Shown: piece after piece, positions 33,080 to 64,000 of the stretch | How positions within the stretch are numbered: the stretch's first letter is position 1 | Layout: each line of letters begins with the position of its first letter | NCBI RefSeq assembly: GCF_014337195.1 | Contig: NZ_CP060634.1 | Span: 1,922,001-1,986,000, forward strand | Direction: 5' to 3' | From: Qiania dongpingensis | Lineage (GTDB): Bacteria; Bacillota; Clostridia; Lachnospirales; Lachnospiraceae | DNA length: 64,000 bases | The notes under the pieces: generated by a model | What the model saw: the letters and a program-made list of their open reading frames with translations, nothing else | Told to the model about the DNA's origin: nothing | Databases searched by the model: none | Position numbers and translations under genes: made by a program

Positions 33080-34201
33080 TTATATCTGCTGAATAAATTC
33101 ATCAATATAATACAGAGCGCTGCCAACAGCGGCTGCCTCAAACCCTTTGGAGGAGGCCTTGATGTACGAGCCGTCGGTTGGGAAAGTAGAACGGGCGCTC
33201 ACCAGCTCCTTCAGCCTTTCAATGTATGGTTCCAGATAAATTCCTACGTATCCGCCCAGGATCAGATCACAGTCCAGAGACATGTTGATATTATTGATCA
33301 ATATGGATAAATTCTGGAGATAGACGTCAAAGCACTGACGAAATGCTTCATTTCCGTTTTTAAGGCCCTCGAAAAAAGCGGCCAGATTATCCCCCGCCAT
33401 GGTGGAGAGAAGCTTGGCATTTAAATAGGCATCGGAGCAGCCGATTTTCCCGCAGTAGCAGGGAAGTCCATTGGGGTCCAGGGTGACATGGCCGAATTCG
33501 GCGCTTCGGTTGGATACGCCTAAGTAGGTCTCGCCTCCCATTAAGATAGATCCGCCTACCGTATTGCTGAGTGAGAGATAAGCGATGGTGTCAATGTCAG
33601 AACGGCCCCAGAATTCGGCCAGTCCGCCGCAATTGGCGTCGTTGTACAGGGTATAGGGGAACGGAATATACGGTCGGATGCATTCATAGAAGTTCCCGGG
33701 TACAGGAAGGGAAGACTGGAAAATATAAGTCCCGTATTCCGTGATGATTCCCGGTATGGAGATTCCGATTCCGAGCACCCGGTCCGGACTTACTCCAGAG
33801 GCTTTTAAAAATTCGGATATCTCAAGACTGACTTCCCGGTAGCTTTCCTCCGTCCCTTTGATCTGGTAGTGTTTTCTTGGCATACTATGGATCACGCAGC
33901 CGTTCAGGTTCACAAGGACCATGGAGATATGGTTCAGGGTGATATCCAGTCCGAGAGCGACTTTAGCGTCCGGCACGATGGAAAAGCCTGTGGCTTTGCG
34001 CCCGACGCTTGAGGCCAGGGCCCCGTTTTCCATGATCAGCCCGGCGTTTTTCAGATCCTGAAGGTTTTGACTGATGGTGGGGAGACTCATGTGAAGTTCA
34101 TACGCAATCTCCTGTTTTGAAATCTTATTCCGGCCAGCAATGAGCCGGAATATTTTATTTCGATTGTACTGCTTAATGTTGGCGGTATTGATCGGTGCCA
34201 T
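33080..34201 (-). CDS. ROK-family transcriptional repressor (XylR/NagC type)
   Basis: The 373-aa protein has an N-terminal winged helix (about 12-70, KISKQEIAYELHMSLPTISQNL) and a C-terminal ROK fold with the zinc motif CYCGKIGC and the sugar-binding YNDAN. The kinase phosphate loop (normally DxGGT) reads LDITLNH, so it should bind a sugar without phosphorylating it. It is divergent from a polyol-type dehydrogenase and sugar importer, which it very likely represses via the palindromes between them. Confidence 0.9.
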   Translation of the reverse strand: MAPINTANIKQYNRNKIFRLIAGRNKISKQEIAYELHMSLPTISQNLQDLKNAGLIMENGALASSVGRKATGFSIVPDAKVALGLDITLNHISMVLVNLNGCVIHSMPRKHYQIKGTEESYREVSLEISEFLKASGVSPDRVLGIGISIPGIITEYGTYIFQSSLPVPGNFYECIRPYIPFPYTLYNDANCGGLAEFWGRSDIDTIAYLSLSNTVGGSILMGGETYLGVSNRSAEFGHVTLDPNGLPCYCGKIGCSDAYLNAKLLSTMAGDNLAAFFEGLKNGNEAFRQCFDVYLQNLSILINNINMSLDCDLILGGYVGIYLEPYIERLKELVSARSTFPTDGSYIKASSKGFEAAAVGSALYYIDEFIQQI

Positions 34202-34221
34202 AATATCTCCTTTTATTTTGT

Positions 34222-34244
34222 TTTTATAAAATTATTTTATAAAA
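34222..34244. promoter_or_regulatory. Tandem TTTTATAAAA operator near the ROK gene
   Basis: Two self-palindromic TTTTATAAAA copies (34222-34231 and 34235-34244) are separated by three bases, about 20 bp before the ROK start. They share the core of the palindrome at 34392-34411, suggesting autoregulation. Confidence 0.7.
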
Positions 34245-34345
34245 TAACTTGTTATTAGTTTAACATATTTCGGGGGAAATGCAATCAAAATTCAGCTCTT
34301 TAATATAATGGATGGTCATTTTGCCCATAAAAATATATATTTCAG

Positions 34346-34374
34346 TTGACAATTTGGAAATATTATACTAATAT
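34346..34374 (+). promoter_or_regulatory. Promoter of the dehydrogenase-ABC operon
   Basis: TTGACA (34346-34351), 17 nt, TAATAT (34369-34374). The 20-bp operator lies immediately downstream. Confidence 0.8.
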
Positions 34375-34391
34375 GCTAATATATTATATAA

Positions 34392-34411
34392 AATAGTTTT
34401 ATAAAACTATT
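34392..34411. promoter_or_regulatory. Perfect 20-bp palindromic operator
   Basis: AATAGTTTTATAAAACTATT is a perfect palindrome centred about 20 bp after the expected transcription start. It has the same TTTTATAAAA core as the two sites near the ROK gene. Confidence 0.8.
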
Positions 34412-34459
34412 ATAGTAAAAGCATTTGCGAAATGTCAACAGGAAGAAAGGGATAAGAAA

Positions 34460-35494
34460 ATGAAAGCAGCGTATTTGGAAAAGCCGATGGAAATCGTGAT
34501 AAGAGACAACGCGGATGTTCCGGTGCCGGGCCCGGAGGAAGCGCTGGTGAAAGTGGAGTACTGCGGAGTGTGCGGTTCGGACGTTCATTTTTATAAGGAT
34601 GGGCATATCGGAGATGTGACGGCGCCTCCATCATTTATCTTGGGACACGAAGTGGCCGGTACGGTTATGAAGGTGGGAAATCTGGTGAGTGGGCTCCGGC
34701 CGGGGGAACGGGTCGCACTGGAGCCTGGCTATCCCTGCGGTACATGTGAGCTTTGCAGGAGCGGCAAATACAATCTCTGCCGGTCCGTCCGCTTTTTTGC
34801 TGACCCGCCTACACAGGGGGCCCTTCAGGAATATGTGGTCCATCCGGCGGGAATGTGCTACCCGCTTCCGAAATCTGTGTCCACAGAGGAAGGGGCTTTA
34901 GTGGAACCCTTGGCGGTGGGACTTCACGCCGCGGGTCAGGGAAATGTCACATTGGGTGACCGCGTGCTGATCTTGGGCGGCGGCTGCATCGGCCTGGTGA
35001 CCTTATTGGCGGCGAAAGCGCGGGGAGCATCGGAGATTGTGGTGGCGGATTTGTTTGAGAAGCGTCTGGAAGCTGCGAAACGTTTGGGAGCAAACGGCAT
35101 TATTAACGCCGGAAAGGAAGACGTGGCGGCCAGGGTGAAAGAAATCTTTGGAGAACGGGGAGCCGATGTGGTATTTGAAACGGCAGGATCGGCAGCGACC
35201 ATTGGCGAGGCGCCGTTTTTTGTGAAGAGGGGCGGTACGGTGGTACTCGTGGGAATGGCGGCGGAGAGCACGATCAACTTTAACTTTTCTCAGATCATGG
35301 TGAAAGAAGTTACGATCAGATCTGTATTTCGCTATCGAAATCTGTATCCTGTGGCGATTGCGGCGATTGCCAGCGGCTCCATCGATGTGAAACCGATCGT
35401 CACCCATTATTTTTCTTTTGACGACAGCGACGCGGCTTTCCGAACTGTGGTGAAAGAAGCGAAGGATGTTATTAAAGCGGTCATCCGGTTTTGA
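34460..35494 (+). CDS. Zinc-dependent medium-chain dehydrogenase, sorbitol/xylitol-type
   Basis: The 344-aa cytoplasmic NAD(P)-dependent enzyme oxidises a polyol or sugar alcohol. It shows the catalytic-zinc residues Cys (CGVCGSDVHFY) and GHE (LGHEVAG), the four-cysteine structural zinc lobe (CGTCELCRSGKYNLC) and a Rossmann GGGCIGL. PLAVGLHA is typical of the sorbitol/xylitol dehydrogenase branch. The ribosome binding site is GGAAGAAAGG. It is first in an operon with a ribose-type ABC importer under the ROK operator, so it likely performs the first oxidation of the imported compound. Confidence 0.88.
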   Translation: MKAAYLEKPMEIVIRDNADVPVPGPEEALVKVEYCGVCGSDVHFYKDGHIGDVTAPPSFILGHEVAGTVMKVGNLVSGLRPGERVALEPGYPCGTCELCRSGKYNLCRSVRFFADPPTQGALQEYVVHPAGMCYPLPKSVSTEEGALVEPLAVGLHAAGQGNVTLGDRVLILGGGCIGLVTLLAAKARGASEIVVADLFEKRLEAAKRLGANGIINAGKEDVAARVKEIFGERGADVVFETAGSAATIGEAPFFVKRGGTVVLVGMAAESTINFNFSQIMVKEVTIRSVFRYRNLYPVAIAAIASGSIDVKPIVTHYFSFDDSDAAFRTVVKEAKDVIKAVIRF

Positions 35495-35520
35495 CGGCCG
35501 GACAGAAAGCAGGTGTGGAA

Positions 35521-37017
35521 ATGAGTGAAGAGATCAAGCTGGAACTAAGAAACATATCAAAATCTTTTCCGGGAGTAAAAGCGCTGGATCAAGTGAGCTT
35601 TCGGCTGAAAAAAGGTACGACACATGTACTCTGCGGAGAAAACGGAGCCGGGAAATCCACTCTGATGAAAATTCTGGACGGAATATACCGGCAGGACGAA
35701 GGGGAGATTTATATCGACGGCAGGCCGGTCCAAATAAAGAGTCCGGTGGATGCAAGGGCCAACGGCATTGCCATGATCTTTCAGGAACTTTCTTATGTGC
35801 CGGATCTGACTGTGGCGGAAAACGTTTATTTGGGCAGCTGGACGATGAAGCGGAGGGGAAAAATCGATTGGAAAACGATACGGAAGAATACGGAAGCGCT
35901 TCTGACGCAGGAGGGATTTCCGTATTCTCATGACACGCTTTTGAGGAGCCTGAGCGTGGCGGACATTCAGCTGATCGAAATACTGAAAGCGGTATCCTTT
36001 GACGCCCAGGTATTGATCATGGACGAGCCGACCTCTTCCATATCAGATAAGGAAGTGACGTTCTTGTTTGATAAAATTGAACAGCTGAAAAAACGGGGAG
36101 TCAGCATCATTTATATTTCTCATAAGATGGATGAAATTTTTAAAATAGCTGATGAGATCACGGTTCTTCGGGACGGGGCGGTAGTAGGGACGAGAAATGC
36201 CTCGGAGGTTACGATTGACCAAGTGATTGAGATGATGGTCGGGAGGAAGCTGGAGAATCAGTATCCGAAAACAAAAGTCCCGGTGGGAGAAAAGGTCCTG
36301 GAAGTAAAGGGGTTCTGCTCGCCTGGAATATTCAAAAATATTTCGTTTGATGTCAGAGCGGGAGAAATCGTAGGATTCGCGGGGCTGGTTGGCGCGGGCC
36401 GGACAGAAGTGATGAACGCGGTCTTCGGAATGGATCCTCATACAGAAGGAGAGGTGTACATAAAAGGAAAGCCGGTGCAGATCAGGCACGTATGGCAGGC
36501 AATCGCCCACGGGCTTGCGATGGTGTCGGAGGACCGGCGGCAATACGGCATTGTACCGGTAAGGAACATTATAGAAAATACCTCCCTGGCTTCGCTGAAA
36601 AAATTCTTTTATAAAGGGCGCTGCCACAAACGAAAAGAAAAGGAGAAGGTACGGGAGGTCTGTGAACGGATGAATGTTAAAACTCCGTCGCTGGAAACAA
36701 AGATCGAGAACCTTTCCGGCGGAAACCAGCAAAAGGTGATCTTGGCGAAGTGGATGCTCTGCAGCCCGGACGTACTGATTATGGATGAACCGACTAGAGG
36801 GATCGACGTGGGGGCTAAGAGTGAAATCTATCAGCTGATGGAAGAATTTGCCCGGGATGGAAAGGGGATTGTCATGGTGTCCTCGGAGCTTCCGGAACTG
36901 ATCGGCATGTGCGACCGGATTTACGTAATGCATGAAGGAGTAATCACGGGATGTCTGGACAAAGAGGAATTTTCTCAGGAAGCTATTATGAATTTCGCAG
37001 TAAAGACAGCAGGGTGA
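35521..37017 (+). CDS. Ribose-type sugar ABC transporter, ATP-binding protein (RbsA family)
   Basis: The 498-aa duplicated ATPase has a canonical first half (Walker A GENGAGKST, Walker B LIMDEPTSS) and a second half with the family-typical degenerate Walker A GLVGAGRTE, a late LSGGNQQKVILAKWM signature and MDEPTRGIDVG. It energises the permease downstream. Start 35521 follows AGGTGTGG; an earlier TTG at 35491 overlaps the dehydrogenase stop. Confidence 0.93.
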   Translation: MSEEIKLELRNISKSFPGVKALDQVSFRLKKGTTHVLCGENGAGKSTLMKILDGIYRQDEGEIYIDGRPVQIKSPVDARANGIAMIFQELSYVPDLTVAENVYLGSWTMKRRGKIDWKTIRKNTEALLTQEGFPYSHDTLLRSLSVADIQLIEILKAVSFDAQVLIMDEPTSSISDKEVTFLFDKIEQLKKRGVSIIYISHKMDEIFKIADEITVLRDGAVVGTRNASEVTIDQVIEMMVGRKLENQYPKTKVPVGEKVLEVKGFCSPGIFKNISFDVRAGEIVGFAGLVGAGRTEVMNAVFGMDPHTEGEVYIKGKPVQIRHVWQAIAHGLAMVSEDRRQYGIVPVRNIIENTSLASLKKFFYKGRCHKRKEKEKVREVCERMNVKTPSLETKIENLSGGNQQKVILAKWMLCSPDVLIMDEPTRGIDVGAKSEIYQLMEEFARDGKGIVMVSSELPELIGMCDRIYVMHEGVITGCLDKEEFSQEAIMNFAVKTAG

Positions 37018-37039
37018 TAAATGATTGGGAGGATGGACG

Positions 37040-38014
37040 ATGGAGATGCAAAAACCGAAAAGGGATTTTCATAAAATTTTGAGTAGGTACAGTCTGGTTC
37101 TGATACTAGTCGTATTTATGGCAGTCTGTGCCATAGCCAATAAACACTTTTTAAAACCCGACAACTTATTGAATGTGGCAAGACAGCAGTCAGTCATCCT
37201 GATTATCGCGTTTGGCGAGATGCTGCTCATCACCGCGGGCCTGCTGGATCTGGCGGCCGGCGCCGTAGTAGCCTTGGCCGGCGTTCTGGCGGTATCCGCC
37301 TATCATGTGACTCACAGCATCGCAGCGACCTTTGCCGTAGCGATCGGGGTATCTGTGGTCTGTAATCTGCTCAGTGGATTTATGGTGACGAAATTCAGGA
37401 CGCCCCCATTCATTGCGACCCTTGCCATCCAGACGATGGCCAGAGGAGCCGCGCTTTTTTATACCGACGGTCAGAACATCTATGACCTGGGGAAATTTAC
37501 GGTAGTCGGACAGGGGAGCTTTCTGGGAATCCCGATACCCGTCATCATTATGCTTGTCACCTTTGCCGTAATCTTTTATCTGACAAACCACACAAGGATG
37601 GGCCGTTCCATTTACGCGATTGGGGGAAATGAACAGGCGGCCAATGCTTCCGGAATTAAAGTAAAGTCTGTGAAAATGAAGACGTATGCCATCCATGGCA
37701 TTTTAGTCGGTATTGCAGCCGCTGTTTTTGTATCAAGAGTAAACGGCGCTATGCCGAACGGAGCTCAGGGATATGAATTCGACGCGATGACTGCCACGAT
37801 CATAGGCGGGACCAGCTTTTCCGGCGGTGTAGGATCGGCTTTCGGTACAATGATCGGCGCGTTCATCGTGGGCTTTTTAAGCAATATCATGAACCTGATA
37901 TCTGTCAATTCCTATATCCAGCAGATTGTAAAAGGCGTGATCATTGCAGGCGCGGTCATATGGGATCTTTATTCCAAGGAGAAAAAAACCTACAAAAAGG
38001 GCTCTAAGGGATAA
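37040..38014 (+). CDS. Ribose-type sugar ABC transporter permease (RbsC family)
   Basis: The 324-aa protein has about eight to ten membrane segments, the LLDLAAGAVVALAG segment and the GRSIYAIGGNEQAANASGI coupling loop typical of RbsC. It lies between the ATPase and the binding protein of the same operon. Start 37040 follows GGGAGGATGG; an in-frame TTG at 37025 overlaps the ribosome binding site. Confidence 0.93.
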   Translation: MEMQKPKRDFHKILSRYSLVLILVVFMAVCAIANKHFLKPDNLLNVARQQSVILIIAFGEMLLITAGLLDLAAGAVVALAGVLAVSAYHVTHSIAATFAVAIGVSVVCNLLSGFMVTKFRTPPFIATLAIQTMARGAALFYTDGQNIYDLGKFTVVGQGSFLGIPIPVIIMLVTFAVIFYLTNHTRMGRSIYAIGGNEQAANASGIKVKSVKMKTYAIHGILVGIAAAVFVSRVNGAMPNGAQGYEFDAMTATIIGGTSFSGGVGSAFGTMIGAFIVGFLSNIMNLISVNSYIQQIVKGVIIAGAVIWDLYSKEKKTYKKGSKG

Positions 38015-38047
38015 GCAGATACAACCACTTAAAAAGGAGGAAGAAAA

Positions 38048-39109
38048 ATGAAAAAATTGTTGGCAGTATTGATGGCAGTATGTATGGTCCTATCTATGTC
38101 AGCCTGCGGGGGCGGTGACAAGAAGGAAACAAAAGCGGTATCTGGGGAGACGAAAACGGAGGCGGGAAGTACAAAGGAAGCATCTGACGGGGAAACGTAT
38201 AAGGTGGCGTTTATTTCAAGAAACATGGCGGACAGCTTTGCCGCCAGAATCGCAAAGTCTATGGAAGAGGAATGGGAGGCGAATTACAAAGACCTGTTCA
38301 CTCTGGATATCCTGGATGCGGAATCGGACAGTGCAAAGGAAAATACTCTGATTGAAACCTGTATCACAAAGGAATACGACTGTATCATTATCCAGCCAAA
38401 CGACGGAGATCTGCAGCTTCCTTATGCTCAGAAGGTTGTGGACGCAGGGATCAAATGTATTACCACGAACGCCGGCATCCGTGAGGTGGAGGGCGGTTCC
38501 TGGATCGACGCAGATCCTTATGATCAGGGTCGGGTCCTCGCTGAACTGGCCGTAGAAAAAGCGCCGGAAAACGCTAGAGTGGTCATCCTTTCCTGTAATC
38601 CCGGGAACCTTCACACAGAATCCAGGCTGAAAGCGTATAAGGACATTTTTGTAAAACAGCGCCCGGACTGCGAGATCCTGGCGGAGAAAATCACCGACCG
38701 CGCGGATGAAGGCACCTTTATGGCGACTATGGAGGACTGGGTACAGTCCTATGGAAAGATTGATGTAGTGCTCACCATCGGCGATGCGCTGGCCATGTCC
38801 TGTTACGAGGTAGTAAAGGACAATCCCGATTACAAGGACATCCAGACATACGGGGTAGACGCGGTGCCCGAGGCACTTCTGGCCATTAAAAAAGGTACTT
38901 ATACGGCGACTGTGATGCAGAACACAAAAGAGCTGGCAGAGAAGAACCTGGCGGCAGCAGCCAGACTCTTAAAAGGAGAAGACGAAGTGATCGAGGAGTC
39001 CATTGATACGATTCTGATCACAAAAGACAACGTGGATGAATACATCGACTTTTATATTGAACAAGGAGCGCTGACTCAGGAAGAAGTGGATGAAGCAATG
39101 AAGAATTAA
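38048..39109 (+). CDS. Sugar ABC transporter substrate-binding lipoprotein
   Basis: The 353-aa lipoprotein has lipobox SMSAC (Cys20), a short charged linker and a Peripla_BP_4 fold. It delivers the substrate to the ribose-type permease. The dehydrogenase suggests a polyol or pentose-related ligand, but no specificity residue can be read safely. Ribosome binding site AAGGAGG; last gene of the operon, followed by a terminator. Confidence 0.92.
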   Translation: MKKLLAVLMAVCMVLSMSACGGGDKKETKAVSGETKTEAGSTKEASDGETYKVAFISRNMADSFAARIAKSMEEEWEANYKDLFTLDILDAESDSAKENTLIETCITKEYDCIIIQPNDGDLQLPYAQKVVDAGIKCITTNAGIREVEGGSWIDADPYDQGRVLAELAVEKAPENARVVILSCNPGNLHTESRLKAYKDIFVKQRPDCEILAEKITDRADEGTFMATMEDWVQSYGKIDVVLTIGDALAMSCYEVVKDNPDYKDIQTYGVDAVPEALLAIKKGTYTATVMQNTKELAEKNLAAAARLLKGEDEVIEESIDTILITKDNVDEYIDFYIEQGALTQEEVDEAMKN

Positions 39110-53897: not shown

Positions 53898-55130
53898 ATG
53901 CCAGGACCGGGAGCATTTTGGATTGGTGAGGAAGAAATCAACGAAGTAGTAGATGTTTTGAAAAGCGGACATTTATCACGCTATGGTAAGCTGGAAGACC
54001 CGAATTTCAGGCATAAAGTAATTTCTTTTGAGGAGGAATTCGCAAAGTTTTCGGGAGCCAGGCACTGTCTGGCTGTGTCCGGAGGAACCAGCGCCCTGAT
54101 CAACTGTCTGGTATCCATGGGAGTGGGGCCGGGAGACGAGGTGATCGTGCCGGGATATACGTTTGTGGCGACCATGTCTGCGGTTCTGTTTGCAAAGGCG
54201 ATACCGATTCTGGCGGAAATCGACGATTCCCTGACCATGGATCCGGATGATTTTGAGAAAAAGATCACACCGAGGACCAAAGCGGTTATCCCGGTACATA
54301 TGCTTGGAAATCCGTGCAGGATGGACAGAATCATGGAAATCGCCGACAGACATGGCATTGCGGTCCTGGAGGACAGCTGTCAGGCCTGCGGCGCCACCTA
54401 CAGGGGCCGTCCCGTCGGCTCATTCGGAAAGATGTCAGCGTTTTCCCTCAATATCTTCAAGACCATCACTGCAGGAGACGGGGGCATGCTGACCACGGAT
54501 GACGATGAATTGTTTACCAGAGCCTTTGCCTTTCATGACCAGGGCCATCTTCCTTACCGGGCCGGAGCGGAAATTGGCGGGCGGACTATCATCGGGATGA
54601 ACCAGAGGGTGAACGAGGTGAGCGGAGCGGTGGCATTGGCTCAGGTCCGCAAGCTGCCGCTGATCATCAGTACGCTCCGCAGGAATAAGGAAAGGCTGAA
54701 AAGCAGGCTGCAGGGCCTTCCGGGATTTAAGTTCCGTACCATCAATGATGAAGGGGAGTGCGGCACGATTCTGACACTGATCTTTGATACGAAAGAACTG
54801 GCAGATCGTTTCTGCAAGGAAGTGAACACAAAGGTGGTATATGAATCCGGATGGCACGTGTATGCCCATATGGAGCAGATACTTGGTAAATGCACTTCCA
54901 CCGCGTTTAAGTGTCCCTACGAATGTCCCGTTTATGGAAGGGAGGTCAGCTATACCTCTGATATGCTGCCGAAAACGGATGATATTCTCATGCGAAGCGT
55001 AAATATCAGCGTAGGTGTGGTCGACGCAGCGCTGGCTGCGGGATTTGGCGTCAATATAAACTCTACGGACGCGGAAATAGACAGAGCGGCGGACAAAATG
55101 GCGGAAGTCATACAAAAAATCAGTTTCTGA
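53898..55130 (+). CDS. DegT/DnrJ/EryC1/StrS aminotransferase, first of a tandem pair
   Basis: The 410-aa PLP enzyme has the substrate-aldimine Lys188 in NIFKTITAGDGG, the PLP phosphate-binding SGGTSAL at 60-66, and the Asp/Gln pair in VLEDSCQACGA. The family moves an amino group between glutamate and keto-sugars or keto-cyclitols. It lies directly upstream of a second DegT gene and an ABC sugar importer, with no nucleotide-sugar genes nearby, so a catabolic or salvage role (amino sugar or amino-cyclitol) is an inference. Ribosome binding site AAAGGGGG. Confidence 0.9.
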   Translation: MPGPGAFWIGEEEINEVVDVLKSGHLSRYGKLEDPNFRHKVISFEEEFAKFSGARHCLAVSGGTSALINCLVSMGVGPGDEVIVPGYTFVATMSAVLFAKAIPILAEIDDSLTMDPDDFEKKITPRTKAVIPVHMLGNPCRMDRIMEIADRHGIAVLEDSCQACGATYRGRPVGSFGKMSAFSLNIFKTITAGDGGMLTTDDDELFTRAFAFHDQGHLPYRAGAEIGGRTIIGMNQRVNEVSGAVALAQVRKLPLIISTLRRNKERLKSRLQGLPGFKFRTINDEGECGTILTLIFDTKELADRFCKEVNTKVVYESGWHVYAHMEQILGKCTSTAFKCPYECPVYGREVSYTSDMLPKTDDILMRSVNISVGVVDAALAAGFGVNINSTDAEIDRAADKMAEVIQKISF

Positions 55131-55161
55131 GAAAAGCTCTCGGAGAAAAGGAGAAAAAGGT

Positions 55162-56412
55162 ATGAATTTTAATGTCGGTATCGATTTTCTGATAAAAGAA
55201 AACCCGGTGGGTGCTATTTTCGGGGATGATGAGATCAATGCAGTCGCACGGGTGATGCGTTCCGGGAAAACCTTGGCTTATGGCGAGAACCGGGACCAGT
55301 TTGAGGCGGAGTTTGCGGAATATGTGGGCGCAAAACATTGTATCACCACATCCTCAGGTACGACAGCCCTGGATCTGGCGGTCATGATCCTCTGCTTAAA
55401 AGAAGGGGACGAGGTGATCTCCACTCCTCAAAGCTTCCGGGCTACCTATTTAAAGCTGGCAAGTAAAAATATCACCATCAAGTTCGCGGATGTTTTTCCA
55501 GATACCTTGAATATGGATCCGTCGACCATTGAGGATAAGATCACAGACAGGACAAGGGCTATCATGATTATGGACTATGCGGGCAACCCCAATGACATGG
55601 ACGCGATCATGGCGATCGCCAGAAAGCATGATCTGAAGGTAATAGAAGACGCCGCCCATGCTCCGGGCGCCAGCTACAGGGGGAGGAAAATAGGCTCCAT
55701 CGCGGATCTGACCTGCTTTTCCTTCCAGTCTTTAAAAAATATGTCCCTGGGCGGCGAAGGAGGCGCGGTCACAACGGATGATGACGAATTGGCGGCCGCG
55801 GCTCTGGAAATACGGGCGTATGGGATACTCGGTGAAAAAAAGGAAAGGGAAACGCCGTGTATCGGGCCTTATAAACCGTTAAAGCATATCTACGATCACG
55901 CCAGTTTTTCTTATACCCATGACTGGACTCACATCGACGAGATCGGCACTAATATGAGAATTACTGAAATGCAGGCGGCTATAGGCCTGGTACAGCTTGC
56001 GAAGCTGGATAAGTTCAATGAAATGAGAATTGCCATCGCGAAGAAGTATAATGAAGCTTTCAATCGGGTGGAGGGGCTTCGGACTTTAAAGATTGATCCC
56101 CAGGACCGCTGCGTATATCATTTATATCCGGTCTTTATCGATCCGGAGATTCTGGGAGTAGACCTGCAGGGCTTCATCGATTACCTGCAGTTTGAAAAAC
56201 GGATTCAGATCATCCTGCGATTCTTCCCGGCGACGGTTTCTGACTATATGGTCTACAAAGGACACAAGCTGGGGGAATCCCCCGTGTGTGAAAAGGTATG
56301 GTTTGAGCAGCAGGTCAATATCCCGATCAATCCCAAGATGACGGAGGTTGAGGTTGCCTATGTCATCAACAGCGTAGTGGAAGCGGCAGAACACTTCAAG
56401 TCAAATAAGTGA
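55162..56412 (+). CDS. DegT/DnrJ/EryC1/StrS aminotransferase, second of the pair
   Basis: The 416-aa PLP enzyme has Lys192 in QSLKNMSLGGEGG, SSGTTALDLAV at the phosphate site and IEDAAHAPGA. It is only distantly similar to its neighbour (different active-site loop, extra HDWTHIDEIGTNMRITEMQAA segment), so it is not a recent duplicate and probably acts on a different substrate or step. The ribosome binding site is AAAGGAG; gaps of 31 and 17 bp tie it to both neighbours. Confidence 0.9.
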   Translation: MNFNVGIDFLIKENPVGAIFGDDEINAVARVMRSGKTLAYGENRDQFEAEFAEYVGAKHCITTSSGTTALDLAVMILCLKEGDEVISTPQSFRATYLKLASKNITIKFADVFPDTLNMDPSTIEDKITDRTRAIMIMDYAGNPNDMDAIMAIARKHDLKVIEDAAHAPGASYRGRKIGSIADLTCFSFQSLKNMSLGGEGGAVTTDDDELAAAALEIRAYGILGEKKERETPCIGPYKPLKHIYDHASFSYTHDWTHIDEIGTNMRITEMQAAIGLVQLAKLDKFNEMRIAIAKKYNEAFNRVEGLRTLKIDPQDRCVYHLYPVFIDPEILGVDLQGFIDYLQFEKRIQIILRFFPATVSDYMVYKGHKLGESPVCEKVWFEQQVNIPINPKMTEVEVAYVINSVVEAAEHFKSNK

Positions 56413-56429: not shown

Positions 56430-57929
56430 GTGGAGGAACAGGAATATGCTTTGAAGCTGGAAGGGATCAGGAAAAGCTATTATGGAGTGTATGCCCTGGA
56501 TAACGTGGATTTTGCAGTGAAAAAGGGGACGATACACGCTCTGATGGGTGAAAATGGAGCCGGGAAATCCACTTTGGTGAAAGTGATAGCAGGGGTGCAC
56601 CGGCCTGATGAAGGAAAAGTTATTCTGAAGGGGAAAGAGGTATCCTTCTCAAACCCCGGCCAGTCCATTGACCATGGCATCGCGATGATCTACCAGGAGC
56701 TGAACCCTATACTTGATATGACCGTGGCGGAGAATCTTTATCTGGGAAGAGAACCCATGAAAAAAAGAAACACAATCATAAATGATAAAAAAATGTACCG
56801 GGATGCGAGGGAACTTTTGGATAAGGTGTCCCTGGATGTGGACCCTAGGATGAATATGAGATTACTGTCCGTGGCTCAGCATCAGCTGGTGGAGATCGCG
56901 AAAGCGATCGACCGGAATGCGGAGCTGATTATCATGGATGAACCTACCTCTGCTTTGTCGGAACGGGAAATCGAAGGCCTGTTCCAAATCATGAGGGAGC
57001 TTAAGAACCAGGGGCGCACTATCATTTATATCAGCCATAAGCTGGATGAGGTCTTTCAGGTGTCGGATGAGGTCACAGTTCTGAGGGACGGGCATTATGT
57101 GGGGACATTCTTTACGCGGGAACTGGACAAAAACCAGCTGATAAAGAAAATGGTGGACAGGGAGCTGACGGAGATTTTTCCGGTTCGCAGGAAAAAACCG
57201 TCGGGCAAGATAAAGCTGTCCGTGGAAGGCTTATCCCGGAAAAATGAATTTGATAATATAAATTTTGAAGTTTATGAGGGAGAGATCCTGGGCATGGTGG
57301 GCCTCATGGGAGCGGGAAGGACAGAAATCGCCCAGGCCGTATTCGGATGCACAAGGCCGGACAGCGGCCGTATTCGGATAGATGGAAGAGAAGTGCATAT
57401 CCGGACGCCGAAGGACGCGGTGGAGCACCGCATGGGATTTGTGACAGAGGACCGGAAGCTGACCGGTCTTGTGCTCCCCATGAGCGTGAAGGACAACGTC
57501 ACTCTGGCGCACCTGGAGAAGCTCTGTACCGGCAGATATTTCATACGGAAAAAGGAAGAGAAGGAACTGGCGGAAGAATATGTAAAGAAACTCCGGACTA
57601 AAATTATGGGACTTGGGCAGCTGGTACAGAACCTTAGCGGCGGAAACCAGCAGAAAGTGGTGCTGGGGAAATGGCTGATGAATGTGCCGGAGATCCTGAT
57701 ACTGGATGAGCCTACAAGAGGAATCGATGTCGGAGCAAAATCCGAGATTTATCAGCTGATCGCGGACCTGGCGGACGCGGGAATCACGGTCATCATGATT
57801 TCCTCGGAAATGGAAGAAATTCTTGGATTATGTGACCGCATGGTGGTGTTTCACGAAGGACATAAAAGCGGAGAAGTGATGAGGGCAGACACCACGCAGG
57901 AACAGCTCCTGGAAATGGCGACGAGCTGA
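56430..57929 (+). CDS. Ribose-type sugar ABC transporter ATP-binding protein (RbsA family)
   Basis: The 499-aa duplicated ATPase is fully equipped: Walker A GENGAGKST, signature LSVAQHQLVEIAKAI, Walker B IIMDEPTSALS, H-loop YISHKLD, then second-half GLMGAGRTE, LSGGNQQKVVLGKWL and LDEPTRGIDVG. GTG 56430 follows GAGAGAGGTG. It forms an importer with the next two genes. Confidence 0.93.
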   Translation: MEEQEYALKLEGIRKSYYGVYALDNVDFAVKKGTIHALMGENGAGKSTLVKVIAGVHRPDEGKVILKGKEVSFSNPGQSIDHGIAMIYQELNPILDMTVAENLYLGREPMKKRNTIINDKKMYRDARELLDKVSLDVDPRMNMRLLSVAQHQLVEIAKAIDRNAELIIMDEPTSALSEREIEGLFQIMRELKNQGRTIIYISHKLDEVFQVSDEVTVLRDGHYVGTFFTRELDKNQLIKKMVDRELTEIFPVRRKKPSGKIKLSVEGLSRKNEFDNINFEVYEGEILGMVGLMGAGRTEIAQAVFGCTRPDSGRIRIDGREVHIRTPKDAVEHRMGFVTEDRKLTGLVLPMSVKDNVTLAHLEKLCTGRYFIRKKEEKELAEEYVKKLRTKIMGLGQLVQNLSGGNQQKVVLGKWLMNVPEILILDEPTRGIDVGAKSEIYQLIADLADAGITVIMISSEMEEILGLCDRMVVFHEGHKSGEVMRADTTQEQLLEMATS

Positions 57930-57964: not shown

Positions 57965-58948
57965 ATGGATCCTACAAATCATAATTCAAGAGAACTCGCA
58001 AAAGGCAAATATAAGCAAAGCCGGATATTCATGGCAAAGTATGGGATTGTGATCGCATTTGTCATATTCTGCCTGATACTGAGTATTTCCACCAGGGGAC
58101 GTTTTTTAAACATCGGAAATATCCTGAATGTTCTCAGGCAGGTGTCCATCAATGGAATTCTGGCGATCGGCATGACCTTTGTCATCCTCACCGGCGGGAT
58201 AGATTTGTCCGTCGGTGCCACAGTGGCCCTGTCCGGCTTTATCTGTGCCAGTGTTTATAAGGCGGGCTGGGGGATGCTTGCAGTATTCGCGCTGACTGTT
58301 CTGTGCGGAGGCCTGATAGGGCTGGTAAACGGCTATCTTGTGGCAAATCATTCTCTGGCGCCCTTTATCGTGACCCTGGGCGTACAGACCATGGTGAGAG
58401 GTTTTACGTATATTTATTCAGATGGAAAACCGATTTCACAGTTCACGGGTAATTTTGTGGAAATTGGTCAGGGCAGCTTCCTCGGCATTCCCATACCGGT
58501 CTGGATTTTACTGATCACCTTTTTGATCTCCTGTTTTATATTGTATAAAACTAAAATGGGACGGTATGTGTTCGCCGTAGGAGGTAACTTGAACGCGGCG
58601 CTTTATTCCGGTGTGAGGACTAAAAGCATCCTGCGGTTTGCGTACTGTTATTGCGGCCTGATGAGCGGCCTGGCAGCCGTGGTCCTGACATCCAGAGTAT
58701 CGGCGGCCCTGCCGCAGGCGGGACTGGCCTATGAATCTGACGCGATCGCTGCAGTGGTCATCGGCGGCACCAGCCTTTCCGGTGGGAAAGGAAGGCTCTG
58801 GGGTACCATAGTCGGAGTCCTGCTGATCGGGGTGATCACCAACGGACTGGACCTGCTCTCTGTTTCTTCCTATATTCAGCAGGTGGTGAAGGGAGCCATT
58901 ATCATCGGAGCCATATTGTTTGACAGGTTTACAAATCGGACGAATTAG
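57965..58948 (+). CDS. Ribose-type sugar ABC transporter permease (RbsC family)
   Basis: The 327-aa membrane protein has eight to ten segments, TGGIDLSVGATVALSG (RbsC signature) and GGTSLSGGKGRLWGT. It follows the ATPase by 35 bp. The ribosome binding site is GGGAGGAA. Confidence 0.93.
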   Translation: MDPTNHNSRELAKGKYKQSRIFMAKYGIVIAFVIFCLILSISTRGRFLNIGNILNVLRQVSINGILAIGMTFVILTGGIDLSVGATVALSGFICASVYKAGWGMLAVFALTVLCGGLIGLVNGYLVANHSLAPFIVTLGVQTMVRGFTYIYSDGKPISQFTGNFVEIGQGSFLGIPIPVWILLITFLISCFILYKTKMGRYVFAVGGNLNAALYSGVRTKSILRFAYCYCGLMSGLAAVVLTSRVSAALPQAGLAYESDAIAAVVIGGTSLSGGKGRLWGTIVGVLLIGVITNGLDLLSVSSYIQQVVKGAIIIGAILFDRFTNRTN

Positions 58949-58967: not shown

Positions 58968-60044
58968 ATGAAAAAGATGAAAAAGGCAATGGCGCTCATC
59001 ATGTGTCTCGTCTTATGTACGGGAGCGCTGGCAGGCTGTTCGGGCAAGCCGACCGCCGCAAAGGAGACCACCGAAAAAGAAACTGCAAAGGCAGCACAGG
59101 ATGAAACGACGGCCGCAGAATCGCAGGGAGCTTCCGCGGTACAGAAAGCCGTGGAAAAGGCAGGGGATAAAGACCACATCGTGATCGGCACATCCATTTA
59201 TTTCATGACTGAATTCTGTGTGCTCATGGTAGAAGGAATGCAGGAGGAAGCGGAACGGCAGAATGCGGAACTGGTGGTACTGGATGCCAAAAACGACGCC
59301 TCGCTGCAGCTGAACCAGATTGAGAATCTGATCTCTCAGCAGGTGGACAGCATCATCATATCGCCCGTGAATTCGGACGCGGCGGAACCGGCCCTGGATT
59401 TATGTGAAGCGGCGGGGATTCCCATATCGGCAGTAAATATGACGATCACCACGGACCGGGATTACTATTATGTGGGGCCGAATGAGATCCAGGCCGGCGA
59501 GCTGGCGGCCCAGTGGCTGATCGACAATGTGGGAGAGGATGCCAAGGTCTGCATTATCCAGGGGCCCATCGGCTGTTCGGCGCAGATTTTCCGGGATGAA
59601 GGCATCTTTAACATACTTGATAAACATCCGGGGGTCGAGGTTCTGGCTATTAAGCCGGGGGACTGGAACCGTAATACCGCTGTTTCCCTGACGGAGAACT
59701 GGCTGACTACCTATGGAGATAAACTGGATGCGATCATTTCCCATGATGATGATATGGGCCTTGGAGTTGTGCGCGCTCTGCAGTCAGCCGGCAAATTGGA
59801 AGATGTGAAGGTGATCGCGTGCGCCGACGGGATAGAGGAGGCGTGTGAATCGGTAAAAGCAGGAGAAATGTCCGTCACCTTTTTCCAGGACGTGTTCCGG
59901 GAAGGGGAATTGTCCGTGGAAATGGCGGCGAAGCTGGCGCGCGGAGAAAAGATTGAGGAACAGCAGGTGCTGATCGACATGATTCCCACGGAAAAGGAGT
60001 ACGCGCAGGAACTGCTGGAGGACTACTACGGACCCAGAAAATAG
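58968..60044 (+). CDS. Sugar ABC transporter substrate-binding lipoprotein
   Basis: The 358-aa lipoprotein has lipobox LAGC (Cys24), a Thr/Glu/Ala-rich linker of about 45 residues and a Peripla_BP_4 fold starting at IVIGTSIYFM. It lacks a sequence hint for a specific sugar. Preceding aminotransferases suggest a nitrogenous sugar or cyclitol. Ribosome binding site AAGGAGG. It is followed by a hairpin and the two-component genes. Confidence 0.9.
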   Translation: MKKMKKAMALIMCLVLCTGALAGCSGKPTAAKETTEKETAKAAQDETTAAESQGASAVQKAVEKAGDKDHIVIGTSIYFMTEFCVLMVEGMQEEAERQNAELVVLDAKNDASLQLNQIENLISQQVDSIIISPVNSDAAEPALDLCEAAGIPISAVNMTITTDRDYYYVGPNEIQAGELAAQWLIDNVGEDAKVCIIQGPIGCSAQIFRDEGIFNILDKHPGVEVLAIKPGDWNRNTAVSLTENWLTTYGDKLDAIISHDDDMGLGVVRALQSAGKLEDVKVIACADGIEEACESVKAGEMSVTFFQDVFREGELSVEMAAKLARGEKIEEQQVLIDMIPTEKEYAQELLEDYYGPRK

Positions 60045-60099: not shown

Positions 60100-60130
60100 G
60101 CGAATGCTCCAAGTATTTTGGAGCACTCGC
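60100..60130 (+). terminator. Hairpin between the importer and the two-component genes
   Basis: GCGAATGCTCCAA (60100-60112) pairs with TTGGAGCACTCGC (60118-60130) with one mismatch. No T-run follows, so it is more likely a partial terminator or mRNA-stabilising hairpin than a full stop. Confidence 0.5.
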
Positions 60131-60176: not shown

Positions 60177-61775
60177 ATGCTGACAGTATTGATCTCAGAC
60201 GATGAGCCGGACGTGTGCCAGCTGATCGCACATTTAATAGATTGGCCGGCGATGGGCCTGGAGCTGGCAGGAATCGCCGTAAATGGCCTGGACTGCCTGG
60301 ATAAAATTAAACGCTTCCGGCCGGACATTGTCATTACAGATATCCGCATGCCCGGCCTGGACGGCCTGAATTTGATCCGGCAGGTTCACGAGAACGGGCT
60401 CCGGCCATATTTCATCATCATCAGCGGATACCGGCATTTTCAGTATGCGCAGCAGGCCATCCGCTATGAAGTAGAAGACTATCTGCTGAAGCCCATAGGA
60501 AAGGCAGAGCTCACCTACTGCCTGGAGAACATTGTCCGGAAGATACGGGCGAACCAGGAAAAAGCCTGTGCCGCCGAGGAAAAAGAGTTATTGTTCAAGG
60601 AAAGCAGGCAGCGGCTGCAGGGACATTTGGTGACGGTGCTTCTTCACCGGCCTGGCGCATGTGGTTCCATGGATATCCGGAGTCTGAACGAAACCTTTCA
60701 TACAGCATTTCAGGAAGGGGAGTTTCTGGCTGTTTGCATGCAGGCCAGCGGAGCAAAGGGAGTGACGGAGGAGGAGCTGGCGTCGGTTCTTAAATATGCG
60801 GAAAATACCGCGATTCGTATGCTGGCGGAGCAGAGGCTTAAGAATGTGCTGGCGGTCGACGGCTTCCGCTTGTTTGGAATCGTCAATTGTAATGCCGGAG
60901 AAGGTGCGGCTGCCCGAATGGCGCTTGGCACAGCATACCGTACGGCTCTGGCTTATATAAAAGACAGGAAGGACATTGCCCTATCCTGTGCCATCAGCCG
61001 TGGGGGAAAAGAACCGGAAGAATTTACACGCATGCTGAAGGAGGCCGGAGAAGGAGTAGATTATCAATTGGTATGGGATCCTGGACGGGCGGTCGATATG
61101 GAACAGGTTTCCGGTAGCTCCATGGATATGGAGGAAATCTGTCCTCTTCCGGTCAAACGGGATATCGAAAACACCGCCGCGGCTTTGGATATAGATAAGA
61201 TGTGCCGGGGAGTGGACCTTGTTTTCCGGGAATTCCGGAAATGGGAAGCCGGAAACCCCAGAATGCTGTTTGAGTTTTGCAGATATCTGGAGGACGCCAT
61301 AAGAAAGTCTTTGGAGAATAGCAAGATTTGTGAGAAAATACCGCCTGGGATTTTATGCTCCGGCGGGGTATCAGACCTAACAGAAATGAACCGCAGCGTT
61401 AAAGAACAGATCGGAGAATTGTTCGGACATCTGATTCAGGAAAGTGAATCCAATGGTAATCGGTCGGTGCGGACCGCGAAGCAATATATAAGCGAGCATT
61501 TTATGAAACCAGTCCGCCTGTCGGAGGTGGCGGAGCTGGTCCATATGAATGCCGCGTACTTCAGCACGGTATTCAAAAAAGAAACGGGAGAATCGTTCAG
61601 CGACTATGTCACAGGCCAGCGGATGGAAGCAGCAAAACGGTTTCTGCGGGGCAGCGATCTGCCGATCAGCGTGATAGCAGAAAAGGTGGGCTATACGGAG
61701 ACGGCATATTTCAGCAGGCTTTTTACAAAGGTCGTCGGAATCAAACCGTCACAGTACAGGAATCTTCATTCTTAG
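60177..61775 (+). CDS. YesN-type response regulator, REC plus AraC helix-turn-helix
   Basis: The 532-aa regulator has a receiver domain (about 1-120; acidic pocket SDDEPD, phospho-Asp55 in VITDIRMPG, Lys107-type LLKP), a long poorly conserved middle part (about 125-420) and a C-terminal AraC DNA-binding domain (about 430-530, HMNAAYFSTVFKKETGESF and TAYFSRLFTKVVGIKPSQYR). It likely activates the upstream importer and aminotransferase genes in response to the adjacent kinase. Ribosome binding site AAAGGAG. Confidence 0.92.
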   Translation: MLTVLISDDEPDVCQLIAHLIDWPAMGLELAGIAVNGLDCLDKIKRFRPDIVITDIRMPGLDGLNLIRQVHENGLRPYFIIISGYRHFQYAQQAIRYEVEDYLLKPIGKAELTYCLENIVRKIRANQEKACAAEEKELLFKESRQRLQGHLVTVLLHRPGACGSMDIRSLNETFHTAFQEGEFLAVCMQASGAKGVTEEELASVLKYAENTAIRMLAEQRLKNVLAVDGFRLFGIVNCNAGEGAAARMALGTAYRTALAYIKDRKDIALSCAISRGGKEPEEFTRMLKEAGEGVDYQLVWDPGRAVDMEQVSGSSMDMEEICPLPVKRDIENTAAALDIDKMCRGVDLVFREFRKWEAGNPRMLFEFCRYLEDAIRKSLENSKICEKIPPGILCSGGVSDLTEMNRSVKEQIGELFGHLIQESESNGNRSVRTAKQYISEHFMKPVRLSEVAELVHMNAAYFSTVFKKETGESFSDYVTGQRMEAAKRFLRGSDLPISVIAEKVGYTETAYFSRLFTKVVGIKPSQYRNLHS

Positions 61776-61784
61776 GAGGGGTAT

Positions 61785-62900
61785 ATGAAACAGAATTCCC
61801 GGCCGCAGACAGCGGCCATCCGGCTGTTATTCAGGTATATTATATATGGGATTGTATTTGCGGCGCCAGGCATCCTTCTGGGAGTGCATTTGATGGGAGA
61901 GACAGGCTATGGATACCGTGCGCTCCTTTTCGGCGGGATTTTGCTGGAAGTATTTGTTTATGCCTCGTATTTGCTTTTTGGATACCGGAATATTTACAAG
62001 GTACACCGTCAGATTGACGCTGCCCTTCGGGAGGTCTCTGAAGTTTCAGAAGGGATAGAAGGGGTGACCGGCGTGGACAGGATATGCAGGACCGTGGTAA
62101 GGCTGAACGGATATACAAATAAAAAGAACACACAGAAGATGCTGGTGAAGCAGGCGGAACTGAATGCCCTCCAAAATCAGATCAATCCCCATTTTTTGTA
62201 TAATACCTTGGAGTGTATACGAGGGAAAGCCATGGTACAGGGGGCGGAGCAGATCGCCAATATGACAGAAGCCCTTTCCGCGTTTTTCCGCTACAGTATC
62301 AGCATCCAGGAGAATCTTGTGACTCTGGAGCAGGAGCTACAAAATACGAAGAATTACTTCTTGATTCAAAAGTACCGGTTTGGGAACCGCTTTCACCTCC
62401 GGATTTTCTTGGTGGAGGAATCGGAAGCGGGTGAATATCTGATGCCGAAGATGACCCTGCAGCCCATTGTAGAAAACGCGATTTTTCATGGGCTGGAAAA
62501 AAGTGTTTCAGAGGGAGCGGTCACCATACGTGTGACGGCGACGGAAAAAAGGCTGATACTGGCAGTCCAGGACGATGGGATCGGAATTCCCGGACCGGTT
62601 CTTAAGGAGATTCAGGAATCTCTGAACGGTCTTAAGAAAGACCGGGGGGAGGAAGGAATGCACAGCGGAATCGCTTTATCCAATATAAACGAAAGGATCC
62701 ATCTCCATTTTGGATTCCGGTACGGTATCTCGATCAACAGTGAAGAAGGATTGGGAACGGAAATTACGATTACACTGCCGGCGGTAAAGAAAGCGGCCGG
62801 CGGCGCGGGAGACAAACGGCGGATGGAAGAGACGCTCGGGAGGGACGGCTATGAGGCGGGAACTTTTGCGGATGGAGCACATCACGAAGACGCAATTTGA
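61785..62900 (+). CDS. YesM/LytS-type histidine kinase with almost no extracellular domain
   Basis: The 371-aa kinase has two close membrane segments (about 17-38 and 46-66) joined by a loop of about 8 residues, a short linker, His136 in NPHFLYN (His_kinase domain) and a C-terminal HATPase_c (PIVENAIFHG, DDGIG, GTEITITLP). Typical YesM kinases carry a 200-300-residue extracellular sensor between the two segments; here it is absent. The 3' end overlaps the next gene by 50 bp. Ribosome binding site AGGAGGGG. Confidence 0.92.
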   Translation: MKQNSRPQTAAIRLLFRYIIYGIVFAAPGILLGVHLMGETGYGYRALLFGGILLEVFVYASYLLFGYRNIYKVHRQIDAALREVSEVSEGIEGVTGVDRICRTVVRLNGYTNKKNTQKMLVKQAELNALQNQINPHFLYNTLECIRGKAMVQGAEQIANMTEALSAFFRYSISIQENLVTLEQELQNTKNYFLIQKYRFGNRFHLRIFLVEESEAGEYLMPKMTLQPIVENAIFHGLEKSVSEGAVTIRVTATEKRLILAVQDDGIGIPGPVLKEIQESLNGLKKDRGEEGMHSGIALSNINERIHLHFGFRYGISINSEEGLGTEITITLPAVKKAAGGAGDKRRMEETLGRDGYEAGTFADGAHHEDAI

Positions 62901-64000
62901 TATCAAAATGCTGGATGACCTGACGCTGAACGTTTACAGCGGGGAGATATTAGGGGTATTAGGCCTGTCGGGTTCGGGAAAGACGCTGGTATCCCGTATT
63001 CTGGCCGGCAAAGATATTTCGTTCTCCGGCGACGTTTACGTTCAGGAAGAACCAGTTGAGGATTTCACGTCATTTATATGGAGGAAGGGGATTTTCTGTA
63101 TCTTGTCCGTAGACGGACTGGTGCAGGAGCTCTCCATCGCGGAGAATATATTCGTGATGCAGCCGGACGGGAGACCATATGAACGCGTCCGGACGAAAAA
63201 GATATGCAGGGAATCCCGGAAAATACTGGAATTCCTGCGCCTGGGGCATTTGAACCCACGGATTCCGGCTAAGAATCTTTCCCGATATGAGCAGTGTATG
63301 ATACAGGTGGCAAGGGCTTTGGTCGCCAAAGCGGAGCTGATTGTCATGGATACCATTTTTGAGGCTATGTCCCGTGAGGAACAGATAAAGCTGGAGCAGT
63401 CCATTTTTATGCTGCGGGACACCGGGATTGGATTTCTGATTACAAGCCGTTTCGGAGAATATCTGATTCCGGTATCGGACAGGATCGCCGTACTACGGGG
63501 CGGACATAATGTGAGGACCTTTTATCGGGAAGAGTTTTCCCAGGAGCGTCTTCTGCGGGTTATGCTGGGATTTCGCCATATTGATGCAGGCAATATGAAA
63601 GCAGAATCAGGACAAAAGGAGGTCCTGCGGTTTGAGAACACAGAACTTTACGGGCTGAAGGGATTTTCTCTTGCCATAAAGGAAGGAGAGGCGGTAGGCC
63701 TGTGGGAGCTTCAAAATGAGAGGAATATGGCATTATGCACGCTTTTGCTGGGAGAACAAAAGGGATACAGAGGGAAGATTTATTTGAAAGGAGAACCGTT
63801 CGTCCCCAGAGATATTCCCAGAGCAGTCAAAAGAGGAATCGGAGTCATCCGGAACGACCCGCTTAAAACGGGGCTGGTCCCTTCCATGACGGCGGCTGAC
63901 AACCTACTTATTCCTGCGGTCAGAAAAATCACAGGCGCAGTATTAAATAAAGGCATATATAAATTCATCAGATCAGAACATTCCGGCCTGCTGGAGGCTG
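62851..64000 (+). CDS. RbsA-like pseudo-ATPase next to the two-component genes (runs off the window)
   Basis: At least 383 aa, open at the window end. The first ABC half keeps Walker A GLSGSGKT (38-45). The Q-loop glutamine is missing (FCILSVDGL where relatives have a YQE), the signature reads LSRYEQCM instead of LSGGQ, Walker B ends MDTIF instead of MDEPT, and the H-loop histidine is Arg (TSRFG). The second half lost Walker A (GLWELQNERN) yet keeps the RbsA landmark GLVPSMTAADNL. ATP binding without hydrolysis is likely. No permease or binding protein follows within the window. It overlaps the kinase gene by 50 bp, and AGGGA is its ribosome binding site. Confidence 0.85.
   Translation, partial: MRRELLRMEHITKTQFDIKMLDDLTLNVYSGEILGVLGLSGSGKTLVSRILAGKDISFSGDVYVQEEPVEDFTSFIWRKGIFCILSVDGLVQELSIAENIFVMQPDGRPYERVRTKKICRESRKILEFLRLGHLNPRIPAKNLSRYEQCMIQVARALVAKAELIVMDTIFEAMSREEQIKLEQSIFMLRDTGIGFLITSRFGEYLIPVSDRIAVLRGGHNVRTFYREEFSQERLLRVMLGFRHIDAGNMKAESGQKEVLRFENTELYGLKGFSLAIKEGEAVGLWELQNERNMALCTLLLGEQKGYRGKIYLKGEPFVPRDIPRAVKRGIGVIRNDPLKTGLVPSMTAADNLLIPAVRKITGAVLNKGIYKFIRSEHSGLLEA

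Follow-up and report, generated by a model that had tools for sequence, protein, structure and literature searches.

In the UhpC-UhpB system a transporter paralogue serves as the sensor of a kinase, and in MalK-MalT and Pst-PhoU-PhoR importer ATPases report the state of transport to gene regulation. The accessible text of PMC7828314 describes BceAB-BceRS, in which an ATP-binding cassette (ABC) transporter supplies the signal to an intramembrane-sensing kinase that is encoded by an adjacent gene and has no outside sensing domain. CuaDSR of Ruminiclostridium cellulolyticum is a substrate-binding protein (SBP) three-component system, and the available part of PMC10384115 names XylFII-LytS alongside it. 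Here we describe a locus at the right end of a 64,000-nucleotide stretch of Qiania dongpingensis DNA (NZ_CP060634.1, positions 1,922,001 to 1,986,000; the whole stretch is called the window below). Six genes, for an intact RbsA, an RbsC, a binding protein, an AraC-type regulator, a short-loop YesM kinase and a catalytically degenerate relative of RbsA that we call pseudo-RbsA, may form an importer-linked sensing module. A literature search that covered openly available papers found no description of this module.

A conserved triad beside a sugar importer

The genes of the module, with two retained segments of pseudo-RbsA and a nearby hairpin, are the following.

56430..57929, + strand, intact RbsA-type double-cassette ATPase of the importer, two ABC_tran domains (Pfam)
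57965..58948, + strand, RbsC-type permease, BPD_transp_2 (Pfam)
58968..60044, + strand, sugar-type substrate-binding lipoprotein-like protein, Peripla_BP_4 (Pfam)
60100..60130, no strand, hairpin of 13 pairs between the binding-protein and regulator genes, from a pattern scan; candidate attenuator or operator
60177..61775, + strand, AraC-type response regulator (REC + HTH), Response_reg and HTH_18 (Pfam)
61785..62900, + strand, short-loop YesM-type histidine kinase without an outside domain, His_kinase (PF06580) and HATPase_c (Pfam)
62851..64000, + strand, pseudo-RbsA, extending past the end of the window (protein P0001, 490 aa in full)
62962..62985, + strand, retained Walker A of the first nucleotide-binding domain (NBD1) of pseudo-RbsA, residues 38-45
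63871..63906, + strand, retained post-Q-loop segment of the second domain (NBD2) of pseudo-RbsA, GLVPSMTAADNL, residues 341-352, with its Asn kept in 24 of 24 pseudo-RbsAs

The importer ATPase has its Walker A (GENGAGKS), the LSGGN of NBD2 and both DEPT motifs. The top NCBIfam models for the permease and the binding protein were the ribose permease and RbsB respectively, each with a score below the cut-off. In the window this importer lies upstream of the triad formed by the regulator, the kinase and pseudo-RbsA. An earlier account made from the sequence alone, the preliminary description, had reported that the gene following the kinase is RbsA-like and overlaps it, and the open frame from 62851 does overlap the kinase gene, by 50 bases.

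The triad was found repeatedly elsewhere. An N-terminal DNA pattern matched 14 of 391 genomes of one class, giving three pseudo-RbsA loci, three intact RbsAs and eight places without an RbsA-type frame; it matched 3/3 genomes of the family and of the order of G101 (the same three genomes) and 0/32 in the family of G201. A profile made from the window kinase and the kinases of those three loci then matched, at 1e-85, 8 of 167 genomes, namely the three and five new ones, and all eight kinases sit between an AraC-type regulator and a pseudo-RbsA (5/5 of the new loci). In 79 further genomes, hand-picked among the larger ones and presumed from their numbering to lie outside the 167, a pseudo-RbsA profile gave 16 matches in 12 genomes: four pseudo-RbsAs, each with a regulator and a short-loop kinase immediately in front of it, 11 intact RbsAs and one protein keeping most motifs. 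With the window there are thus 13 triad loci, not all of them independent: three are in one family, and pseudo-RbsA identity is 96% between L152 and L173 and 76% between L175 and L176. The order of regulator, short-loop kinase and pseudo-RbsA holds in all 12 others, and no homologue with intact motifs occupied the triad position in the loci examined. The kinase and pseudo-RbsA genes overlap or lie at most about 25 bases apart in 13/13.

The triad is also linked to an importer. In each of the nine other loci with enough contig, the intact RbsA, the RbsC and the binding protein come next after pseudo-RbsA; the contig of L135 stops within RbsA and those of L154 and L155 stop sooner, which makes these three too short for an importer call. 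The preliminary description had pointed to a ribose-type permease nearby, and an RbsABC-type importer adjoins the triad in the window and in these nine loci. It had named a second permease gene directly downstream as a finding that would speak against its reading. In the nine loci a permease is indeed found downstream, but as one component of a complete importer that has an intact RbsA of its own. The binding protein of L175 (3568-5361, 598 aa) is a tandem of two Peripla_BP_4 domains, and that of L176 (13260-14423), cut by the contig end, also has two matched Peripla_BP_4 stretches. In L156 and L174 the regulator gene is immediately preceded by sugar-kinase or ROK-type genes.

The window kinase has its hydrophobic cores at residues 9-41 and at 45-67, in keeping with the two membrane segments and tiny loop of the preliminary description, and its NPHFL motif at 134. 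Its AlphaFold model places helices at 7-38 and 42-89, with low confidence overall (mean predicted local distance difference test score, pLDDT, only 67.8), and both Pfam domains of the YesM type were matched. In the kinases of all 13 triad loci the hydrophobic segments before the core end by about residue 96, leaving no room for an outside domain. In each of the protein searches the best 120 matches were kept (of 1370 for pseudo-RbsA, 846 and, for the kinase, 5394, respectively). Among the best 120 kinase relatives of the 5394 past threshold, 119 have a recognizable histidine motif, always at or before residue 144, and these 120 include a kinase of Lacrimispora sp. NSJ-141 / Lientehia that is 90% identical to that of the window. 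Short YesM kinases without an outside domain are therefore a numerous class, and an adaptor role of pseudo-RbsA, if true, would explain where their signal comes from. In the alignment A6 a conserved stretch following the second helix, about WIYxPYxExxKxLxLFxxGYTI, is common to most short kinases and may be a docking site; it is absent from the window kinase (61785-62900), and this goes with the different pseudo-RbsA subgroup of the window. One short kinase, P0194 (638 aa), has its N-terminal part in tandem repeat and may be an assembly artefact.

Two comparison loci without pseudo-RbsA have kinases with an outside domain, of about 120 residues in L177 and more than 200 in L178. The protein of genome G187 in L177 (5521-10210) at first appeared to be a half-degenerate pseudo-RbsA and was rejected, as it keeps most motifs and adjoins a kinase with an outside loop. 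This RbsA has Asn for Asp in the Walker B of NBD2 and Ser for Pro after the Walker B Glu of NBD1; its neighbours are an AraC-type regulator and the YesM kinase with the loop of about 120 residues, and no permease was found in the stretches scanned.

Catalytic loss and conservation of pseudo-RbsA

The 383 aa of pseudo-RbsA visible in the window are 100% identical to P0001. Their NCBIfam RbsA-type score was 147.7 bits against a cut-off of 689, and the intact RbsA of the window also remained below it (580.3). The AlphaFold model (pLDDT 86.4) has two ABC cassettes in one chain, with a full-length alignment to DppD; no PDB chain matched the intact RbsA of the window at 1e-40. The segment GLVPSMTAADNL aligns with the post-Q-loop segment GLVLPMSVKDNV of intact RbsA, so that the fold landmark noticed earlier is indeed retained. 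In the alignment NBD1 keeps its Walker A and has lost the Q-loop Gln, the Walker B Glu and the H-loop His, and NBD2 has lost Walker A, LSGGN and Walker B.

The preliminary description had listed the losses of the Q-loop Gln, the Walker B Glu and the H-loop His together with a missing LSGGQ and a missing Walker A in the second half. The last two are ordinary for RbsA, because intact RbsA itself lacks LSGGQ in NBD1 (it reads about LSxGEQQ) and has Arg in place of Lys in the NBD2 Walker A. The catalytic site that pairs Walker A and B of NBD1 with the LSGGN of NBD2 retains only its Walker A in pseudo-RbsA. Judged from the alignment, losing LSGGN in NBD2 and the Walker B residues is what eliminates the canonical ATPase site, the sole one in RbsA. 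At 21 catalytic positions of our own choice the pseudo-RbsA of the window keeps 4 residues. The importer of the window, which has an intact ATPase, is by its sequence not inactive.

The same catalytic degeneration was found in 24 proteins, of which 13 came from the protein search (that of the window included; best 120 of 1370 matches) and 11, all full-length, from the genome searches; the partial pseudo-RbsA of L155 was excluded, and P0016 and P0070 are weak members. Because the same losses recur in all of them, the degeneration goes beyond chance, and the residues lost in the window are conserved as losses across the family. The 24 keep 3-8 of the 21 catalytic residues, and LSGGN of the composite site is absent from every one, with NBD2 lacking Walker A. 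They form two subgroups. In that of the window the Walker A Lys of NBD1 is present in 13/13; among the 11 full-length members of the other the motif occurs in 0/11, and a Lys stands at that position in 2/11 and is absent in 9/11. Database entries named 'sugar ABC transporter ATP-binding protein' (P0004, P0103) therefore include a separate and probably non-transporting group.

A tree of 69 rows, with 45 of 156 intact RbsAs including the cognate ones, has a branch with 100/100 support that separates the 45 from all 24 pseudo-RbsAs; two cautions came from the program, one about long branches (P0070) and one about a join within the window subgroup that may be false. That pseudo-RbsA is a recently made copy of the RbsA next to it was rejected on this tree, where the pseudo group falls outside all intact rows, cognates included. 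Intact RbsA has 74 columns conserved to at least 95%; retention in the pseudo-RbsAs is 23% over the 21 catalytic columns and 53% over the remaining 53, the conservation of intact RbsA at the catalytic columns being partly by construction since the 156 were picked mostly for having motifs. All 24 pseudo-RbsAs retain Asp 433 of the D-loop and, behind each Q-loop, an Asn (102, 356). The ratio of nonsynonymous to synonymous substitution rates (dN/dS) was 0.06-0.13 for pseudo-RbsA in four close pairs, somewhat higher than for the adjacent RbsA (0.04-0.06, two pairs) and the kinase (0.02-0.08, four pairs); in a fifth pair, L175-L176, dS was saturated and gave no ratio. The open frames of pseudo-RbsA have 467-501 aa with family-specific conserved residues.

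Other searches were less productive. Profile A1 matched 50 of the 391 class genomes, and the matched proteins in the 30 loci examined all had LSGGN; L109 also holds a partial motif-less frame that is part of the pseudo-RbsA of G384. A contig scan with two patterns, one of them Walker A, returned general ABC ATPases, none of the 80 kept loci exceeding 40% identity. No relatives were found in viral contigs, and in plasmids the best pseudo-RbsA rows reached about 23% identity and carried the label of sugar ABC ATPases; the plasmid search with the kinase query led to the Agathobacter rectalis comparison locus L178.

A proposed role in signalling and its alternatives

Six genes kept together in several lineages, with selection on pseudo-RbsA and no outside domain in the kinase, suggest the following mechanism. 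Pseudo-RbsA would most likely dock on some of the RbsC permease dimers, replacing the working RbsA there. When a loaded binding protein engages such a permease, pseudo-RbsA would move without being able to power transport and would pass this movement to the kinase, which would phosphorylate the regulator; phosphorylated regulator would then probably raise expression of the importer. We give this full model, an importer-docked pseudo-RbsA as the input of the short-loop kinase, a probability of roughly 0.5. Taken singly, its first part is firmer, in that pseudo-RbsA is probably the input partner of the kinase, and the second, that it reads the RbsC permease, is tentative and falls slightly short of an even chance. 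If true, a dead ABC ATPase would be used as the signalling adaptor of an importer. The importer might even double as a cell-surface receptor, the dead paralogue turning some permeases into non-transporting receptors that drive a sensor-less kinase, which we consider possible and somewhat doubtful.

Several results weigh against this model. A test on the post-Q-loop segments, weak with its 7 loci and a deep split, detected no closer match of pseudo-RbsA to the RbsA of its own locus than to others (p 0.37 and 0.47). Mean identity is 0.16-0.24 in every segment, and, two Asn and a few other residues aside, the docking segments show no clear advantage in conservation over the cores. For the window subgroup of 13 proteins the gene context is known for the window only. 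The interaction of pseudo-RbsA with kinase or permease is one that we infer from sequence. Phylum-wide samples added no new pseudo-RbsA: the N-terminal pattern matched 4 of 398 genomes, profile A1 matched 5 of 398 at six places, all intact RbsA, and profile A4 at 1e-85 matched 0 of 109, in a draw without a positive control and at a threshold that would miss most of the window subgroup.

The absence of locus-specific matching would also suit a pseudo-RbsA that controls the kinase without touching the permease, as the receptor of a ligand in the cytoplasm (a sugar phosphate or a nucleotide, for example); what the system reads would then be the outcome of import and not the importer. In the window subgroup the Walker A Lys of NBD1, present in 13/13, fits nucleotide binding, and the sugar-kinase or ROK-type genes of L156 and L174 agree with a ligand of this kind. 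However, the 11 full-length members of the other subgroup have no Walker A motif, and nucleotide sensing therefore cannot be a job common to both; moreover, a complete importer accompanies the module wherever this can be judged. We regard this explanation as rather unlikely. Less probable still is a brake, with pseudo-RbsA competing with RbsA for RbsC to limit uptake while the kinase senses in another way through its membrane helices. The two proteins share a fold and, in nine loci, an operon in which pseudo-RbsA lies directly upstream of RbsA, but a plain brake explains neither the overlapping or abutting kinase gene in 13/13 loci nor why pseudo-RbsA tracks kinases without an outside domain.

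The remaining explanations concern pseudo-RbsA alone. That it is still a working RbsABC-type transport ATPase with unusual motifs could be argued from the Walker A that NBD1 keeps in the window subgroup and from ABC transporters with one degenerate site, but with 3-8 of 21 catalytic residues left, LSGGN of the composite site lost in all 24, no NBD2 Walker A and an intact RbsA in every judged importer, a second working ATPase was rejected on motifs as very improbable. Loss of the catalytic motifs alone would equally fit a functionless, decaying RbsA duplicate. The low dN/dS in the four close pairs, the open frames with family-specific residues and the old split from all 45 intact RbsAs make this barely credible, and the pseudogene reading was rejected on these grounds. 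Taken as a whole, the interpretation in the preliminary description is partly supported.

Some other features of the window may be mentioned. Hairpin-type sites were not more numerous in the pattern scan than in shuffled sequence, and the function of the hairpin at 60100..60130 is unproven. Two adjacent DegT/DnrJ-type aminotransferase genes (53898-56412) lie immediately upstream of the importer and could point to an amino sugar or inositol-like ligand. A second RbsABC-type importer at 33080-39109 (ATPase 35491-37014, permease 37025-38011, binding protein 38048-39106) is accompanied by a ROK-family gene and a zinc alcohol dehydrogenase, and Pfam found no two-component genes among the neighbours scanned.

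Comparison with known systems

The module would be transporter-coupled two-component signalling in a new form, by a mechanism that is unproven but testable. UhpC is a paralogue of a membrane carrier, whereas pseudo-RbsA is a paralogue of an ABC ATPase. The MalK and Pst ATPases are working transport subunits, whereas the triad has a dedicated dead paralogue beside a working one.

The likeness to BceAB-BceS drawn in the preliminary description stands on the accessible text of PMC7828314, in which a kinase lacking an outside domain relies on an ABC transporter for sensing: the triad kinase likewise has two helices in the membrane and no sensing domain outside it. BceAB as described there is an active exporter-type transporter with a large outside loop, in contrast to the RbsABC-type importer, binding protein and separate dead ATPase paralogue of the triad; no BceB-type permease with such a loop was found, the adjacent permease being BPD_transp_2 beside a Peripla_BP_4 binding protein. 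Like CuaDSR, in the available part of PMC10384115, the module places a sugar importer under an AraC-type regulator, a two-helix kinase and an extra partner protein. According to that text the helices of CuaS flank an outside domain of about 266 residues, and CuaS binds a binding protein, whereas the triad kinase has none and its neighbour is a cytoplasmic pseudo-ATPase. Thus, of the features of an SBP three-component system, the AraC-type regulator beside kinase and importer is present, and the outside domain of the kinase is absent in 13/13.

A further comparison is L178, on a plasmid of Agathobacter rectalis (Lachnospiraceae), where a binding protein, an RbsA-type ATPase, a permease, a regulator, a long kinase and two binding proteins follow one another. 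It shares with the module the clustering of the first five and differs in the large outside loop of its kinase, in the two binding proteins behind the kinase and in having no pseudo-RbsA. When the two gene orders are compared, the cytoplasmic pseudo-ATPase of the triad occupies the place that a binding protein has in L178.
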